NCBI GenBank assembly: GCA_003232915.1
Contig: QIKE01000042.1
Location: 1-32,761 of the forward strand
Origin: Bacteroidota bacterium
GTDB taxonomy: Bacteria; Bacteroidota; Bacteroidia; Bacteroidales; F082
Direction: 5' to 3'
Length of the DNA: 32,761 nt
The notes under the pieces were generated by a model that was not told the DNA's origin, did not search any database, and saw nothing but the letters and a program-made list of their open reading frames with translations. This document shows, piece by piece, positions 3,582 through 24,428 of the stretch. Position 1 is the stretch's first letter, and each line of letters opens with the position of its first letter. The translations under genes were made by a program, and so were the position numbers.

Positions 3582-5042
3582 TTACCTCACAATTAATTTT
3601 CCTTTGAAAACGGTACCATCATCCTTCGACACAAAATGATAAAAATAAGTGCCGGCTGACAGCCAATTGCGATGAAAAACAAATTTGTGTCCTTCAACTT
3701 TATTGCGTTGCAACAACTGTCCGTTTATATTATACAAGTCGAAGACAAAATTCTTGGAGAATGACTTTTCAATTTTAAAAGTGGCGGTACAATTCATCGG
3801 GTTGGGATAACAAAGCAGTTTTGCAATACTGTCGGAGGGATTTAAGCCTTCGAAAATGTCAACTTTACCATCAGGTAATAATTTTAGAAAATAGGCATCT
3901 TTTTTTCCGTTTCCAAAACTTTCGGTACTTCCAGCAATGGCACAACCTCCATCGACGGTTATAACAAGGCTTTCGCCAAAATCGTTACCACTTCCTCCAA
4001 TAGTTTCGCTCCAAATTTCGTTGCCGTCGCTATCGGTTTTAACAACATAAACATCTACCGAGCCATCGGTACCGAAACTTTTCGAACTCCCCAAAAGATA
4101 TAAATTCCCCGCTTGGTTTTTTGCAATGGATTTGCCATATTCGAAATCGGAACCGCCAAAACTTTTGTGCCATTGTTCTTCGCCGTCTTCATTGGTTTTT
4201 ATTAGCAACATATCAAAGCTACCATGCCCATAACTTTGGCTTGAACCAAGCAAATAATATCCTCCGTCTGCAGCGGCACAAAGGCTGTAACCAAAATCGT
4301 GTTGATTTTTACCATACAGTTTTTTCCAAATTTGAGTTCCCTGATCATCAATTTTTATTAACATAATATCGGCATCATGCGATTGAAAATCAGCGTGCAC
4401 ATCATCAAAAAAACCGTTTTTCGAGCCGATAAAAACATAACCGTCGTTACCGGTGCTCCGAATTATTTGAAAAGCATAGTCGTTATATTCGTCCCAATAC
4501 GACCGAACCCATTGCTGCTGCTGCGAAGCATCTATTTTCAGCAAATAAACATCACCTTTAGGATTTGTCCGGCGCGAATGGCCGAGAACAAGATATCCCC
4601 CATCATCGGTTGGCAGAACATCGAAACCGTTATCTCTTTTCATTGTACCGAAAAACTTTCCCCAAATAATACAGCCGCATTTATCAGTATGCATCAAATA
4701 AATGTCGAGACCTCCCGGTCCGTAATCCCAAGCATCGCCCACAAAAACAAAACCACTGTCGGTAGCAATTACTTTTCTAAAAAAATCCTGATGCAGCCAA
4801 CCGTAAGTTTTTTCGATTAACAGTTGACCTCCCGAATCAAGTTTGATAAAATAAAAATCGTTACTGCCTGCTCCCATACTTCTTGTTGAACCGGCAATAG
4901 CATATCCACCTTCAGGGGTAGTGCAAATACTCAAACCCACATCATTGTCACTTCCACCAAAAGTTTCGCCGGGATAACCTTGGGAAAACAAACCTGTAGT
5001 ACTAAAAGCAAACCATAAGCAAAAAACAAGTGTTTTCATCAC
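3582..5042 (-). CDS. Secreted repeat protein with T9SS C-terminal sorting domain
   Basis: 486 aa. An N-terminal signal peptide (MMKTLVFCLWFAFSTTGLFSQ) is followed by about seven to eight repeats of 50-60 residues. The repeats have a consensus like GGS-xDxGxS, DGGY-xxAGST-S-GxGxxD-Yx-KxDxxGxxxW. This resembles Bacteroidetes proteins predicted to fold as beta-propellers. The last 75 residues form a type A T9SS sorting domain: CYPNPMNCTATFKI, VFDLYNINGQLL, LSAGTYFYHF and a terminal GKLIVR. The protein is therefore likely exported by Sec and then moved across the outer membrane by T9SS. No catalytic motif is visible, so function is unknown. Start: two adjacent ATGs (MM), and either fits. It is transcribed divergently from purL, with a TAnnTTTG box 13 bp upstream. 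Confidence 0.9.
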   Translation of the reverse strand: MMKTLVFCLWFAFSTTGLFSQGYPGETFGGSDNDVGLSICTTPEGGYAIAGSTRSMGAGSNDFYFIKLDSGGQLLIEKTYGWLHQDFFRKVIATDSGFVFVGDAWDYGPGGLDIYLMHTDKCGCIIWGKFFGTMKRDNGFDVLPTDDGGYLVLGHSRRTNPKGDVYLLKIDASQQQQWVRSYWDEYNDYAFQIIRSTGNDGYVFIGSKNGFFDDVHADFQSHDADIMLIKIDDQGTQIWKKLYGKNQHDFGYSLCAAADGGYYLLGSSQSYGHGSFDMLLIKTNEDGEEQWHKSFGGSDFEYGKSIAKNQAGNLYLLGSSKSFGTDGSVDVYVVKTDSDGNEIWSETIGGSGNDFGESLVITVDGGCAIAGSTESFGNGKKDAYFLKLLPDGKVDIFEGLNPSDSIAKLLCYPNPMNCTATFKIEKSFSKNFVFDLYNINGQLLQRNKVEGHKFVFHRNWLSAGTYFYHFVSKDDGTVFKGKLIVR

Positions 5043-8918: not shown

Positions 8919-11753
8919 CTATTCTTTTGCCAACGGAAGTTCAAAAGAAAAAACACTTCCTTTTCCCACCGTACTTTCAATATTTAGTCGACTATTGTTT
9001 TTAAGGATAAATTCCCTGACTACTATCATACCTAGTCCTGTACCTTTTTCATTTTTGGTACCAAGACGCGAAAATCCTTTTTGTTCGCTATTTATTAAAT
9101 TATTTATAATGTCGAGAGGTATTCCTATTCCTTTATCGACAATCGAAATTTTCGCTTTTTCATCTTTTGTTTCAACAATAACGGCAATGGTGCTATTTTC
9201 ATTTGAAAACTTAATAGCATTGGTTATAAGGTTTCTAATAACAATGTCTATCAAATTATTATCAAACATGGCAAAAACATTTTTATCACCGTTATATTCG
9301 AGTTTAATGTTTTTTTCTTTGGCTTGAACTTGTAAAAAAACGAAAACTTGATCAACAAGGTAGAAAAAATTGTTCCTTTTTATATTGGCTTTAATGGAAT
9401 TTCGCATAATACGTGCCCACGAAAGAAGGTTTTCTATCATAAAAAAAGTGGCGTCAAGCGCAGGTTTCATACTAGTTAAAAAAGGGACGATTTCTTCTTT
9501 CGGCATCGAATCAATATCCGAAAGTATCAGATCAATAATATTTTTTTGCATACCGATAGGGCCAACCAAATCGTGAGCAATAATCGAAAACAGCTTATCT
9601 TTAGTGTCGTTGGCTTCTTGAAGTTGCCTTTCTTGTTGTACCCGGATAGTAATATCCCTCAAAACCCCTTCGACTGCTATTACCTTTCCATTTTTGTCGA
9701 AAACCAACTTTGCACCTAACGAACAAATAACCGGTCGGCCTTTGATATTTATTGCAGTAAGAGTTTCGTCCGTCAACTCACCGGTGGCAAATATTTTTTT
9801 TCTTATCGCCCTATGTTCATTGGGATTATAATAAAAAGTCGTTGCCGATTTTCCAATAATTTCCTCCGGTTTATATCCTGCTATTTTAGTAACCGATGGG
9901 CTTACTTCAGTTATTATTCCATCAATATTTTCTCTGAAAAAGATATCGGGAAAAGCTTCGAAAATATGACGGAATTTTTCTTCACTTTGTTCAAGAGCCA
10001 GAACATAATTTTTACGAGTAGTGATATCCCAGAAATTAATAATAATTCCTTTTAAATTTACCTCATCTAACTTGTTTGTAATCACTCCACGAATATACCG
10101 GTTTTCTTCTTTATCGTCTATCAACCGACATTCAAAATTAGCCGAATTCAGTCTTCTCAATTTCAAGTCGTTCAATATTTGCCTAAGTTTGAGCATATCT
10201 TCAGGATGAACTTTGTCAAATAAAGTTTCAGGTTTCTTTGTATCAAACTGAAAACTATATACCCTTAAGATAGAAGAGCTAATATAAGTAATGTGTAGAT
10301 TACTATTTAAAATTAAAACATGGCTTGCCGAATTTTCCAACAAAGCGTCAACAAAAAGTTGCCGTTGTTTCAATTTTAAACTATTAAGGTATTTTAAACG
10401 AAGAATAAAAACAAGAGCAATAATAATAATAAATAGCGACAACGATATAATTATGGAAATTGATTTTGTTTTCTCAGCTTTTTGCCGGACAAATATGGTT
10501 TCCTTTTTATGTTGTTCGGTTTCGTATTTTAATTGTATTTCGAGAAATTGTTTGTTCTTTTCTTTAGTATATATGCTATCGTAAAGACTCTTATATTCCT
10601 CTAATAAGCGGTATGCCGTTTTGTAATTCTTTTTTTTAGCATAAATATCCTGTAACGAATTCAAATTCGACAGAATATAGTTGGTATTATTAGTTTTTCG
10701 TGAAATATCAAGACTTTTTTGAAAATAAAAAATTGCTGTGTCGAGTAGATAAAAGGCTAATGTATCATCGAAATAAACTTGTCCGATATTAAATAAGCAG
10801 AGCGCTTTAAGTGCCAAAAAATTACTACTGTCTGCAATTTGAAGGCCCTTCCTGTAGTTTTTTAAAGCCTTTTGCAAATTACCAAGAAAACGATAAATGT
10901 TGCCTATATTATTGAAAGATGAGGAAATACCATGAATATTTCCTCTGCTTTTATCAATCTCCAAAGATCGTTTTTCGTAAATCAACGCCAAATCGTATTT
11001 TTTCTGTTGTAAATATAAATCGCCAAGATTGTTTACCGTTACCGAAATAATATCAGTATCTCCTAATTTTTGCCCTATCTTATAAGCTTTCAAAAAATAA
11101 CTGCGGGCATTTACCGTATCTTCTCTTTTTTGATAAATAATCCCAACATTTATACATTCTCTTGCTATTCCAAGTTCGTTGCCATATTTTTGAAATACAT
11201 TTAGAGCTTCAAGATAATATTTTATAGCGATAGCCGTATTGCCTTTCATCTCATAATACAAACCCTTTTCGTTAATAAACCGGCCAATAAAAAGAGAATC
11301 GTGTACACGCTTTGCTAACGATAGCCCTTTGTCAGCAAATATCCACAAACTGTCGAGGTTATTCAAATAAAAATAGCAGTAACCAATATGAACTAGACTC
11401 TTAAAGTAATTTTTTGTATCGCCGGTTTTCAGGTAAACATCACTGGCCCAATGGAAGTTGATGAGAGCGTTTTCGAAAGAACTTGTTTTTAAAAAAACTT
11501 TGCCTCTTGCATAAAAAATTTTTGCCAAATATTTCTTGTTGCCCAATTGTTTGGCAAGAACTATGGCATTTTGCAACGAATCAAGCGTTATATCTAATGG
11601 AAAATGATTTAAAAATGCCGTATCGGTAAATTTATTGATAATAACAGTGTCTTTCAAGGAATATTTTTGTGCAGAGGTGTCTCCGAAAACTCGTATAGAT
11701 AAAAGAAGAAAAGTGAAAAAATAGTTAATAAAAATAATTTTTTTTATGGCCAT
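8919..11753 (-). CDS. Orphan sensor histidine kinase: TPR - TM - PAS - PAS - HisKA/HATPase
   Basis: About 944 aa from ATG 11753 (MAIKKIIFINYFFTFLLLSI, a good signal peptide). The track's upstream start would place 24 polar residues before the signal sequence, so it is rejected. Residues about 90-380 are tetratricopeptide repeats (e.g. ALINFHWASDVYLKTGD, NLGDLYLQQKKYDLAL). A coiled stretch and a transmembrane helix follow (IIISLSLFIIIIALVFIL, about 430-452). Two PAS domains come next, at about 475-590 and 595-705 (FRHIFEAFPDIFF; VEGVLRDIT). The kinase core has H727 in FSIIAHDLVGPIG, N-box NLITNAIKFSNE, G1 DKGIGIP and G2 GTGLGMIVV. Periplasmic TPRs imply sensing of a protein or peptide partner. 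No receiver domain or neighbouring regulator is present. The family is common and often orphan in Bacteroidetes. All kinase boxes are intact. Confidence 0.93.
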   Translation of the reverse strand: MAIKKIIFINYFFTFLLLSIRVFGDTSAQKYSLKDTVIINKFTDTAFLNHFPLDITLDSLQNAIVLAKQLGNKKYLAKIFYARGKVFLKTSSFENALINFHWASDVYLKTGDTKNYFKSLVHIGYCYFYLNNLDSLWIFADKGLSLAKRVHDSLFIGRFINEKGLYYEMKGNTAIAIKYYLEALNVFQKYGNELGIARECINVGIIYQKREDTVNARSYFLKAYKIGQKLGDTDIISVTVNNLGDLYLQQKKYDLALIYEKRSLEIDKSRGNIHGISSSFNNIGNIYRFLGNLQKALKNYRKGLQIADSSNFLALKALCLFNIGQVYFDDTLAFYLLDTAIFYFQKSLDISRKTNNTNYILSNLNSLQDIYAKKKNYKTAYRLLEEYKSLYDSIYTKEKNKQFLEIQLKYETEQHKKETIFVRQKAEKTKSISIIISLSLFIIIIALVFILRLKYLNSLKLKQRQLFVDALLENSASHVLILNSNLHITYISSSILRVYSFQFDTKKPETLFDKVHPEDMLKLRQILNDLKLRRLNSANFECRLIDDKEENRYIRGVITNKLDEVNLKGIIINFWDITTRKNYVLALEQSEEKFRHIFEAFPDIFFRENIDGIITEVSPSVTKIAGYKPEEIIGKSATTFYYNPNEHRAIRKKIFATGELTDETLTAINIKGRPVICSLGAKLVFDKNGKVIAVEGVLRDITIRVQQERQLQEANDTKDKLFSIIAHDLVGPIGMQKNIIDLILSDIDSMPKEEIVPFLTSMKPALDATFFMIENLLSWARIMRNSIKANIKRNNFFYLVDQVFVFLQVQAKEKNIKLEYNGDKNVFAMFDNNLIDIVIRNLITNAIKFSNENSTIAVIVETKDEKAKISIVDKGIGIPLDIINNLINSEQKGFSRLGTKNEKGTGLGMIVVREFILKNNSRLNIESTVGKGSVFSFELPLAKE

Positions 11754-12100
11754 ATTCCCATATAAATTTGTAATTTGTGTCCTTCGGTTACTCTTTATAT
11801 CACTAAGCAAAAAGACATTTCCCAATTTGTAAAAGTAAACTATTTTCGAATATCACAAAATGTTTTATTAAAAAAATATTTCTATGATAAAAAATTCTAT
11901 AAAAGTTTTCGCGACAGACCGACTAAAAGTATAGAAAAATTAGAATTTTTTCTTCCGTTGTGCTACTGAAGAAAATTGCAAAAGCAGATGAGCGGTTTGT
12001 AATTTTGCATTCTGTAAAAGTTTTACAAAGTATTTTCGACAACAGAGATTTTATTCGACCGAAAATTTGAATTGTCACCTTCCGTTGCCGAATTATTTAG
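11754..12100. other. Gene-free upstream region of the kinase gene
   Basis: AT-rich, with no supportable ORF; the 64-aa track ORF here has no recognisable features. It contains a 15-bp perfect palindrome TGTAAAAGTTTTACA (12013-12027) and a plus-strand TAnnTTTG match (taattttg, 12000-12007) without a gene to drive other than the IS relic. I see no clear promoter for the minus-strand kinase. Confidence 0.4.
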
Positions 12101-20827: not shown

Positions 20828-20850
20828 AACCGTATTGATAAATATTTTTG

Positions 20851-21786
20851 ATGATGTCCCGAAATATTCATTTCATTTTTCCGTATGACGATATTATATC
20901 TAAACGGAAAACTCAACTTTGCATTAGGATAAAACGTTTTATAGCAATTCTTTCTCTCTGCATGTTTTTTTATGGGCTACCTCTTACAGCTCAAAGCCTT
21001 TATCCCGCCGGCCAAAGCAACAACGAAACAGTTTTTTACACAATGAACAAACAAGTAAATCAGTTTGTTCACCGTTTCAATATGGAAGAAGATCAATACG
21101 GAAAAATGTTAGACAGAAAAGATAAACGTTACCACAACAACAACTTACGCAAAAAGTTTCTCCCTTTCTTGTTCGACATACACAACCCGCGAACTTCTGG
21201 AAAATTGAAAAACTATTTTATCGACGACGTTACCAATGCCAAACATCCCGTTTATCTTAATTTTCTTGATAAAAATTGGTATGCTGAAGTATCGACTACT
21301 TTTTTAGACGAAAACGGAAAACCAGTAAATCTGATTCTTTTTCTTACTCTCGAACAGGCGGGACAAGGTTCAAAATGGATTATCAGTAATGTTTACGACA
21401 CCGATTTAAAACATCTTTTTCCAGTTGAATCGACAAAAAAACAGGCCAAATATTTTTTGCATCCCCAAAGTCACGAAATTGATTTTATGAATCTGCACAA
21501 AGCCTTGAATAACCCTGATGATATCGAATATTACGCTTCTACCGGTTTTCGTCCCGATTATCTCAGTTTGTTTTTTTACCTGATGAAAAAACGAAAACTA
21601 AGCTTCAAACAAATCAATGAGGTGAAATTTCATTTTTTTCAGATAAAAAACTGGTATTTCGAACTGAAATATTTCAACCGCAACGAAAACAATTCGGGTT
21701 GGTTAATTTCGAATCTGAAATACCTTAGCGACGACGAAAAAGCAAATCTTATCAAATTTTACCGCTCATGTACAACCGACCTATAA
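20851..21786 (+). CDS. Secreted or anchored protein of unknown function
   Basis: About 311 aa from ATG 20851; ATG 20854 is equally possible, and the track's TTG 20848 is not needed. A hydrophobic segment about 30 residues in (RFIAILSLCMFFYGLPLTAQ) looks like a late signal peptide or anchor. The rest is soluble, rich in Asn, Lys and aromatics (FDIHNPRTSGKL, FLDKNWYAEVSTTFLDENGK, FHFFQIKNWYFELKYFNR), with no motif I recognise. It starts 23 bp after the DUF4837 gene. Its last 19 bp overlap the start of the LRR gene, so the two are probably translationally coupled. Confidence 0.75.
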   Translation: MMSRNIHFIFPYDDIISKRKTQLCIRIKRFIAILSLCMFFYGLPLTAQSLYPAGQSNNETVFYTMNKQVNQFVHRFNMEEDQYGKMLDRKDKRYHNNNLRKKFLPFLFDIHNPRTSGKLKNYFIDDVTNAKHPVYLNFLDKNWYAEVSTTFLDENGKPVNLILFLTLEQAGQGSKWIISNVYDTDLKHLFPVESTKKQAKYFLHPQSHEIDFMNLHKALNNPDDIEYYASTGFRPDYLSLFFYLMKKRKLSFKQINEVKFHFFQIKNWYFELKYFNRNENNSGWLISNLKYLSDDEKANLIKFYRSCTTDL

Positions 21787-24428
21787 TCTTGCTAATGCTT
21801 TTTTTTGTTGTCCGAAGTATTTTTGCCCAAGGTATTCAACCTACAGTGTCGGCAAACGACTTGGAGATGTATGAAAAACAAAGTAAAAATCTGGTGAGTT
21901 ATCTTGAAGATACGTTTAATTTTTTGGGCAATCCCAACGAACCTATTTCCGCAAAAGAAATTATTATCAACGAAAGCTATAACAAAGTTTTCGAAAACGA
22001 CAAAGTACAAATTGAAGACGACCTCGACGAAAACCGCCGAGTACCGCTTTATAAAAATGTGCAGGCTTATATGAAAGACATCATGTTTTTTTATAAAAAA
22101 GTATCGTTTACTTTCGACATTACCAGTGTAGAACAATTGGTGAATCAAGCTGGGCAAATTTATTATAAAGTGAGTTTTAACCGTCGCTTGCAAGGAGTTA
22201 CAGTGAATAACGACACCGTAGATAACCTTCGCATTCGATATATGGAAGTGAACCTCAACGCCACCGCTGACGATTTGAAAATAGCAAGTATTTATACTAC
22301 CAAACCCAACCAAAACGAAAGATTGAGACAGTGGTGGAACGGAATGAGTATTGCTTGGAAAAACTATTTCGGTAAGTCCATAATCGTTTACGACACGTTG
22401 CCTTTCAATATGATACGGATGTTTACCGATAGCACAATTGTAACTCCAGTTTGGAATTCCGTTATAATTACCGATACCATACTGCTTGCCAAGCCCGATA
22501 CTTTGCATACTCAACCCCACCCACTCGCCGCAGACAGCCTTAACGACAGGCAAATTTCTTTAAGAAGTAATGCCGTTTTCGAAAAATTTCCTGACACCCT
22601 CAAAGCTAATGCCACCATTTTGTTTAAGATTTTAAGACATCTTATAAAAATTTCTTCTATCGACATTTCTAACAATTTGATGATAAAAAACCTGCAACCT
22701 TTGAGACAACTCAGCAAATTGCAAACGCTTAATATTTCACATACCCTTATCAACAACATTGCGCCGCTACACAGCTTAAGTAAATTAGAAAAACTTAATC
22801 TTTCGGCTTCGGCAGTTAGCGATTTAAATCCGTTAAAATATATATGGAAATTGCACGAAATCGACTTTTCGCATACCGAAATTAAGGATATTGCCGTTCT
22901 TGCAGGTTTGAAACAGATAGAAATCCTAAAAATGGATAGCAACGAAATACCGGAGATTGTTCCAGTAAACCATCACAAAAATCTGCGATTGTTGCAAGCT
23001 GCCAATTGTCATATTACCTCCATCGACAGCATTAGCGCGCTTCCATCGTTAACCCGTCTCGACCTTCATGGAAACCCCTTGCAACAAATTGATTCGTTGC
23101 GGAAACTTACTGCTATACAGCAGCTTAATCTTGATAGTACAGCGGTTTCAGATTTGAAACCACTTGCGGAACTGCACAATTTGAGTGTATTGCAAATCAA
23201 CAATACCGCTGTTGCCGATCTGTCGCCCATAGAAAATCTTGAAAAGCTAAAGGTGGTATATTGCGACAATAGCTTGGTAACACAAGCCGAAGCCGACCGG
23301 TTTATGACCGTAAACCCATCAATTCTTGTGGTTTACAATTCGGCAAAACTCGAAAAATGGTGGACAAAATTGTCTGCCCGATGGAAAACGGTTTTTAAAC
23401 AAAACATCTCAAAACCCAAAAAGCCAACAAAAGAAGAACTGCATAAACTCATTAATGTAACTTCTTTGAATTTATCACCATATCCTGAAATCAAAAATTT
23501 AAAACCCCTTAAAATACTTTACAGGCTCGACGAGCTAAATATTAGCGGCACGGCCGTTTCGGATATTGACGCTCTTGCTTCTTTAAGTCAGCTTAACATT
23601 TTGAAGATGAACTTTACAAAGGTTTCGAGCCTTTTCCCATTATCGAAACTACATAATTTGAAACGGTTAAGTTGTAATAATACCGGCGTTTCCGATTTGC
23701 TTCCCCTATCGGGAAATAAAAGGCTAAACACGGTATTTTGCGATGACGCAAAAGTGAAACCCCAAACCGTAGATGCCTTACTCGACAATCTGCCCGAATG
23801 CCTTGTGGTTTTTGAAACCGAAAATTTGCGCATTTGGTGGAATAATATAGATACTACCTGGCAAAAAGCTTTCAGAAAAATACTTGAGACAGAAGAACAA
23901 CCAACCACACAATCACTACATCGCCTTGCGGAAAAAACGATTTTGCAAATTAAAAACATGCCCAAAATTGATGATCTCGAAGCTCTGAGTGTGTTTTTCC
24001 GACTTCGTAAACTTTCACTGGAAAACGTTGGTGTTACTGATATTGCACCACTCGTTTCGCTACCAGAACTGTTAGAACTGAGCATTACAAATTGCTCCCT
24101 TGCCGACCTTACGGGAATTGAAAAATTAACACAACTGCAATCGCTTACGCTAAGTAACACGGCCATCAACGATATTTATTTGCTTGCCAACCTGAAACAA
24201 TTAAAGAAACTTGACATTTCGGGTACGCGAATAAAAAATTTGAAATACATACGCAATTTAACAGGCTTGGAAACTTTAATTATCAACAATACTAGGGTTA
24301 AAAGTTTGAAATTCATCATGCCTTTTCAAAATCTCAAACTCTTGAAATGCTACAACACATCACTTACGGCAAAAAGAGTGAAAGAATTTAAGCAAAAACA
24401 TCCACAAACAAAGGTTGTTTTTTATTAA
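21768..24428 (+). CDS. Secreted leucine-rich repeat protein with three WW-helix/LRR modules
   Basis: 886 aa. Signal peptide MYNRPIILLMLFFVVRSIFAQ. Residues about 25-185 form an N-terminal domain that I recall from other Bacteroidetes secreted proteins (YLEDTFNFLGNPNEPIS, ENDKVQIEDDLDENRRVP, MEVNLNATADDLKIASIYTT). A motif LxxWWxxxSxxWKxxFxK then occurs three times, starting about W189, W531 and W690. Each is followed by SDS22-like 21-22-residue LRRs (LxxLxxLxISxTxVSDIxPL) and closed by a cap like VVYCDNSLVTQAEADRF...P..LVVY. The final cap ends the protein. There is no enzymatic motif, so a binding role at the cell surface or periplasm is likely. It overlaps the upstream gene by 19 bp. There is no T9SS domain. 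Confidence 0.88.
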   Translation: MYNRPIILLMLFFVVRSIFAQGIQPTVSANDLEMYEKQSKNLVSYLEDTFNFLGNPNEPISAKEIIINESYNKVFENDKVQIEDDLDENRRVPLYKNVQAYMKDIMFFYKKVSFTFDITSVEQLVNQAGQIYYKVSFNRRLQGVTVNNDTVDNLRIRYMEVNLNATADDLKIASIYTTKPNQNERLRQWWNGMSIAWKNYFGKSIIVYDTLPFNMIRMFTDSTIVTPVWNSVIITDTILLAKPDTLHTQPHPLAADSLNDRQISLRSNAVFEKFPDTLKANATILFKILRHLIKISSIDISNNLMIKNLQPLRQLSKLQTLNISHTLINNIAPLHSLSKLEKLNLSASAVSDLNPLKYIWKLHEIDFSHTEIKDIAVLAGLKQIEILKMDSNEIPEIVPVNHHKNLRLLQAANCHITSIDSISALPSLTRLDLHGNPLQQIDSLRKLTAIQQLNLDSTAVSDLKPLAELHNLSVLQINNTAVADLSPIENLEKLKVVYCDNSLVTQAEADRFMTVNPSILVVYNSAKLEKWWTKLSARWKTVFKQNISKPKKPTKEELHKLINVTSLNLSPYPEIKNLKPLKILYRLDELNISGTAVSDIDALASLSQLNILKMNFTKVSSLFPLSKLHNLKRLSCNNTGVSDLLPLSGNKRLNTVFCDDAKVKPQTVDALLDNLPECLVVFETENLRIWWNNIDTTWQKAFRKILETEEQPTTQSLHRLAEKTILQIKNMPKIDDLEALSVFFRLRKLSLENVGVTDIAPLVSLPELLELSITNCSLADLTGIEKLTQLQSLTLSNTAINDIYLLANLKQLKKLDISGTRIKNLKYIRNLTGLETLIINNTRVKSLKFIMPFQNLKLLKCYNTSLTAKRVKEFKQKHPQTKVVFY

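Follow-up and report, generated by a model that had tools for sequence, protein, structure and literature searches.

A protein with three predicted, individually capped LRR solenoids, encoded in a conserved four-gene operon of Bacteroidia

The LRR gene and its parts

The window, i.e. the whole stretch of 32,761 nucleotides that we analysed, comes from a Bacteroidota bacterium of the order Bacteroidales (contig QIKE01000042.1). It carries two overlapping genes on the + strand, the second of which encodes a protein of several distinct parts. Residue numbers refer to the LRR protein.

20848..21786, + strand: p312, a 312-residue protein with a signal peptide; near-obligate upstream partner of the LRR gene, which it overlaps by 19 nt
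21768..24428, + strand: triple-capped LRR protein, 886 residues, with a signal peptide; the third cap (...KVVFY) is its C-terminal end
21852..22295, + strand: N-terminal NTF2-like domain, residues 29-176 (AlphaFold2 model and Foldseek)
22311..22376, + strand: WW hairpin 1, residues 182-203 (motif, alignment and model), followed by a linker (203-292) with a long predicted β-hairpin
22650..23336, + strand: LRR block 1, residues 295-493, nine SDS22-like repeats, with cap 1, residues 494-523 (LRR_4 matches, model and repeat register)
23340..23813, + strand: unit 2, with WW hairpin 2 and N-cap helix (525-562), four LRRs (564-652) and cap 2 (653-682) (motif, alignment, model and register)
23817..24425, + strand: unit 3, with WW hairpin 3 and N-cap helix (684-721), six LRRs (723-855) and cap 3 (856-886) (motif, alignment, model and register)

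The only Pfam matches of the protein are to LRR_4 and other LRR models. The first-pass annotation of this DNA had located a WW motif at residues 189, 531 and 690, and these positions are confirmed. It had also proposed that each WW hairpin opens an SDS22-like LRR block, which is correct for hairpins 2 and 3 but not for hairpin 1: the latter comes after the N-terminal domain, and the linker of about 90 residues lies between it and LRR block 1. Neither this domain nor the operon described below figured in the annotation. The three 21-residue hairpins clearly resemble each other, with pairwise ungapped BLOSUM62 scores of 44-58, compared with maxima of 30-35 in 500 shuffles. Caps 1 and 2 and caps 1 and 3 also score above chance (47 and 41, respectively, against a shuffle maximum of 38), while the score of 24 between caps 2 and 3 is within it (shuffle maximum 31).

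The signal peptide of the LRR protein is accompanied by neither a lipobox nor, according to Pfam, a T9SS C-terminal sorting domain. This last absence is informative, because a Por_Secre_tail protein encoded at 3582-5042 of the window shows that T9SS cargo exists in this genome. The window also encodes a TPR-PAS histidine kinase of 968 residues (8919-11825), which is unlinked to the LRR protein. The genome has a second LRR protein on another contig (L048; G000:C32:26000-40000), a 425-residue frame with several LRR_4 matches and no match to the WW cap.

Predicted structure

We built an AlphaFold2 model of the LRR protein with 26 aligned relatives (pLDDT 87; pTM 0.63, the orientation of the units relative to each other being unreliable). 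The model predicts separate, individually capped solenoids, with the chain broken at the WW segments. Each unit is laid out as a WW helix, a second helix, a third helix in units 2 and 3 only, the LRRs and a helix-strand cap. The closing cap claimed earlier for every LRR block is indeed modelled in all three cases as a helix followed by a strand (506-515 and 520-522, 665-674 and 679-681, and 868-877 and 882-884). At the other end of each solenoid, the WW hairpin and the helix that follows it would form the N-terminal cap. A single continuous solenoid, which the first-pass annotation had named as the outcome contradicting its proposal, is not what is predicted: the model is interrupted at the WW segments, and in Foldseek the continuous solenoids of internalin A and of the Roco LRR can be superimposed over 500-600 columns only at 25-30 Å rmsd (TMt about 0.3). 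The shorter InlF (PDB entry 4fmz) gives a TMt of 0.55-0.60.

The N-terminal domain was also modelled separately (residues 29-176; pLDDT 90.9). The predicted fold is an NTF2-like α+β cone, and Foldseek matches it to the CaMKII hub, to the NTF2-like protein 3er7, to the KSI-like protein 3d9r and to 3rob (TMt 0.70, rmsd 3.9). The model thus places the domain in the NTF2-like superfamily (CaMKII hub, KSI/SnoaL-like). It differs from the known members in its attachment to LRR or TPR solenoids and in its sequence, which has no match to any Pfam family, solved structure or known NTF2-like family. It is the best-conserved region of the protein, its median pairwise identity being 0.51 and that of the LRR units 0.34-0.37.

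The number of units is fixed

A match to the LRR protein was found in all of the 23 same-family genomes searched, mostly over the full length and with 34-48% identity (those in G002 and G010 are incomplete), and orthologues are present in three other families of the order. From a scan of GTDB genomes we also retained the 80 top-scoring loci, of which nearly all span the full query; the titles among these include Bacteroidales, Bacteroidetes and Lentimicrobium. In all 84 aligned sequences, hairpins 1 and 3 keep both tryptophans and hairpin 2 keeps the second; the first tryptophan of hairpin 2 is conserved in 76 of them. The full WW motif is matched three times in 77 of these relatives and twice in the other seven, in which the missing hairpin is still present in the alignment with its first tryptophan replaced. 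The distance between the second and third WW motifs is either 157-160 or 180-182 residues, so that the change observed corresponds to one whole 22-residue LRR. Taken together, the three hairpins and this spacing indicate that the number of units is fixed across the set and that length shifts by single repeats. The idea that the protein is evolving by module gain is therefore not supported, and neither is a recent gain: all 84 relatives retain the three hairpins, and the change seen in spacing is a one-LRR step.

Free-standing versions of the unit do exist. A profile of the WW N-cap detected LRR proteins of about 190-475 residues with one WW unit and no N-terminal domain, TPR-containing proteins of 726 residues with one WW unit, and a fusion of the effector-associated domain EAD11 to one WW-LRR unit (L207:3427-4599). 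A second WW-LRR gene comes after this fusion gene. The single-unit proteins support the view that the WW hairpin caps a free-standing solenoid. In three distant relatives (L180, L182 and L183) hairpin 1 is joined straight to the LRRs. The proposal that whole capped units, and not single LRRs, have been repeated thus agrees both with the breaks in the model and with the existence of single WW-capped LRR proteins elsewhere, and an old duplication of the whole unit is plausible. A tree of the 68-residue modules contains too little signal to date or order the duplications, M2 and M3 being intermixed with the single-unit proteins; the identity of the N-caps is 0.37 for M2-M2, 0.34 for M3-M3 and 0.31 between different units, i.e. 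only slightly higher for the same unit across taxa. Finally, in the alignment of relatives the concave LRR positions are about as conserved as the convex ones, which led us to reject a hypervariable or fast-evolving recognition face.

A conserved four-gene operon

The LRR gene is the last of four genes, preceded in order by lip (a lipoprotein), ntf (secreted) and p312 (secreted). This lip-ntf-p312-LRR arrangement is a conserved operon found in part of the Bacteroidales and in other Bacteroidia, and the LRR protein is an old, fixed part of it. Of the 102 tabulated loci (some genomes being counted twice), 101 have a p312 homologue; L081 has only 221 bp upstream. The p312 gene directly adjoins the LRR gene, with the exception of L059, in which it is found some 5 kb upstream. 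Among the 31 loci found through p312 (five of which overlap genomes already in the earlier set), ntf, p312 and the LRR gene with its N-terminal domain occur in this order in every case, and lip is also present in 30. In the earlier set, ntf and lip were found just upstream in 64-68 loci, or in 75 and 72 loci, respectively, when all ORFs were searched. Their linkage is not absolute, since 25 loci of that set have no adjoining lip and ntf (some for want of flanking sequence) and since the operon is split between contigs in the genome of the window itself, where ntf and lip lie together on another contig (L267:6183-7450; G000:C41), apart from p312-LRR. Conversely, p312 is found with no adjoining LRR gene in L313 and L319.

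Three of the genes also co-occur at a larger scale. In a class-wide survey of 295 genomes, 14 are strong carriers of the N-terminal domain, and these 14 are also the ones with strong matches to ntf and p312; the probability that two sets of 14 genomes drawn at random would be identical is about 3e-24, relatedness ignored. Outside the family the distribution is patchy, p312 being present in 52 of 247 genomes of the order and in 19 of 295 of the class. Conservation of the ntf protein is unusually high, with a median identity of 0.69 over 55 loci.

Apart from the LRRs, no operon protein belongs to a Pfam family; PADLOC gives no match for any of the four, and p312 in particular has no match in Pfam, NCBIfam, PADLOC or PHROG. 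We found no name for the operon. Our search of the open literature, whose coverage excludes most subscription papers, returned nothing on it, nor on combinations of NTF2-like, LRR, caspase and Bacteroidetes. By eye we suspected that the N-terminal domain, ntf, p312 and lip share an ancestor, but hhalign profile comparison does not support this. DUF4837 and a LysM lytic transglycosylase (MltD) are encoded near the operon in the window; we rejected them as partners, as they lie near it in six loci only, always on the other side.

Divergent operons

In three loci containing divergent ntf and p312 homologues (ntf' and p312'), the LRR protein is replaced after ntf'-p312' by a TPR protein of 930-954 residues. 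The N-terminal domains of these proteins are homologous to that of the LRR protein (hhalign probability 91%, E = 1.1e-6). In five other loci, a caspase-like protein (Peptidase_C14) with a signal peptide is found beside ntf' or p312'.

L191:4767-7628: TPR-solenoid protein with N-domain homologue
L259:3634-6429: TPR-solenoid protein with N-domain homologue
L260:99-2888: TPR-solenoid protein with N-domain homologue
L261:8915-10135: caspase-like protein with signal peptide
L301:3965-5134: caspase-like protein with signal peptide
L303:447-1556: caspase-like protein with signal peptide
L306:3211-4347: caspase-like protein with signal peptide
L307:4556-5728: caspase-like protein with signal peptide

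The caspase-like proteins carry a histidine motif, YxGHG, together with an aligned CC motif. In a further locus, L302, a Ser/Thr kinase is encoded upstream of ntf'-p312'. A relative of 646 residues (L308:1640-3577) combines two weak N-domain matches with an outer-membrane β-barrel, a fusion that is consistent with an envelope location. A relationship between the C-terminal domains of lip and of the caspase-like proteins is not supported (probability 12.5%, E = 0.0023, not significant).

Comparison with known systems

By sequence, the best PDB match of the LRR protein is the LRR domain of the Chlorobium tepidum Roco protein (PDB entries 5il7 and 8r4b; E = 3.9e-44, and 5.7e-22 with Foldseek). 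Roco is a cytoplasmic protein in which one LRR solenoid is fused to a GTPase, whereas our protein is exported and has three units. The InlA and InlB chains are also among the best PDB sequence matches, and internalin C2/H likewise belongs to the closest solved relatives. The NCBIfam model internalin_A matches with an E value of 6e-45, but at 153.8 bits compared with a curated cutoff of 1600. The class 1 internalins of Listeria (InlA, InlB and InlH) share with the LRR protein 22-residue SDS22-like LRRs and a helical N-terminal cap. However, this cap is EF-hand-like in internalins (described for InlB in PMC3986869) and is replaced here by the WW helical hairpin; the LRRs of internalins are followed by an Ig-like domain and ours by the helix-strand cap; and internalins have neither three units per chain nor the NTF2-like domain. 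No Ig-like inter-repeat domain is matched by Pfam in the LRR protein, the chain ending at cap 3. A conceptual parallel, for which no homology is claimed, is offered by Slit, an animal axon-guidance ligand with four LRR domains (D1-D4) in tandem in one secreted chain (PMC5807052). It differs from the LRR protein in that the LRR domains of Slit2 are on disulfide-bonded linkers and are followed by EGF and laminin-G domains.

Possible functions

We give about an even chance (roughly 0.5) to the reading in which lip, ntf, p312 and the LRR protein form a conserved envelope system, the LRR protein being its large subunit. By analogy, our best guess is that it would act as an envelope scaffold, with the NTF2-like domain serving for the assembly of partners and the solenoids for clients. 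The NTF2-like domain could assemble with itself or with p312 or ntf, and lip could anchor the complex to a membrane. With its three solenoids, the protein may bind more than one client, or one client at several of its faces. The exchangeable part of the system is the solenoid: in the divergent operons ntf, p312 and the N-terminal domain are retained, while TPRs replace the LRRs.

The kinship with internalins A, B and C2/H among the closest solved relatives, together with the presence of several separate LRR units in an exported protein, would also suit a surface adhesin, an internalin-like recognition array gaining modules. We consider this quite unlikely: the unit number is the same in all relatives, the concave residues vary no more than the convex ones, the protein has neither a lipobox nor the T9SS tail seen on another protein of the window, and its gene is genetically tied to those of three further exported proteins. 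More can be said for a housekeeping envelope factor, involved in quality control or in a cell-wall function and using LRR scaffolds, although it too seems unlikely to us. Its presence in all 23 same-family genomes searched, the conservation of ntf and the proximity of DUF4837 and of the lytic transglycosylase in the window fit such a role; its patchiness outside the family and the rarity of DUF4837/MltD near the operon do not.

The divergent operons suggest an envelope signalling or regulated-death system related to the caspase-carrying variants, in which the LRR or TPR solenoid would act as the sensor. The exported caspases beside ntf'-p312', the kinase of L302 and the EAD11 fusion of L207 all point in this direction. 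Yet the caspase-linked operons are distant homologues only, neither caspases nor kinases were conspicuous among the genes that recur beside the LRR-type operon, the C-terminal domains of lip and of the caspases do not match significantly and PADLOC recognizes nothing, so that for the LRR-type operon we find this reading as doubtful as the adhesin. A wider formulation can be built on the preferred four-gene envelope system: an undescribed envelope complex of Bacteroidia with interchangeable LRR and TPR arms, whose divergent versions are coupled to exported caspase-like peptidases and which would be an envelope counterpart of intracellular solenoid-caspase signalling. This remains speculative, and we judge it about as improbable as the housekeeping role.

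The three-unit LRR protein is real and well conserved, and its interest lies in an uncharacterized conserved system rather than in an ongoing gain of modules. The repeated capped solenoids can now be assigned to a defined unit: an operon of four genes in a set order, with an exchangeable solenoid, the presence of three of its genes coinciding in the survey of 295 genomes. The WW hairpin can be used as a marker of a bacterial LRR cap. If the caspase-linked variants are functionally related, they would make this operon a testable envelope sensor system in Bacteroidia.
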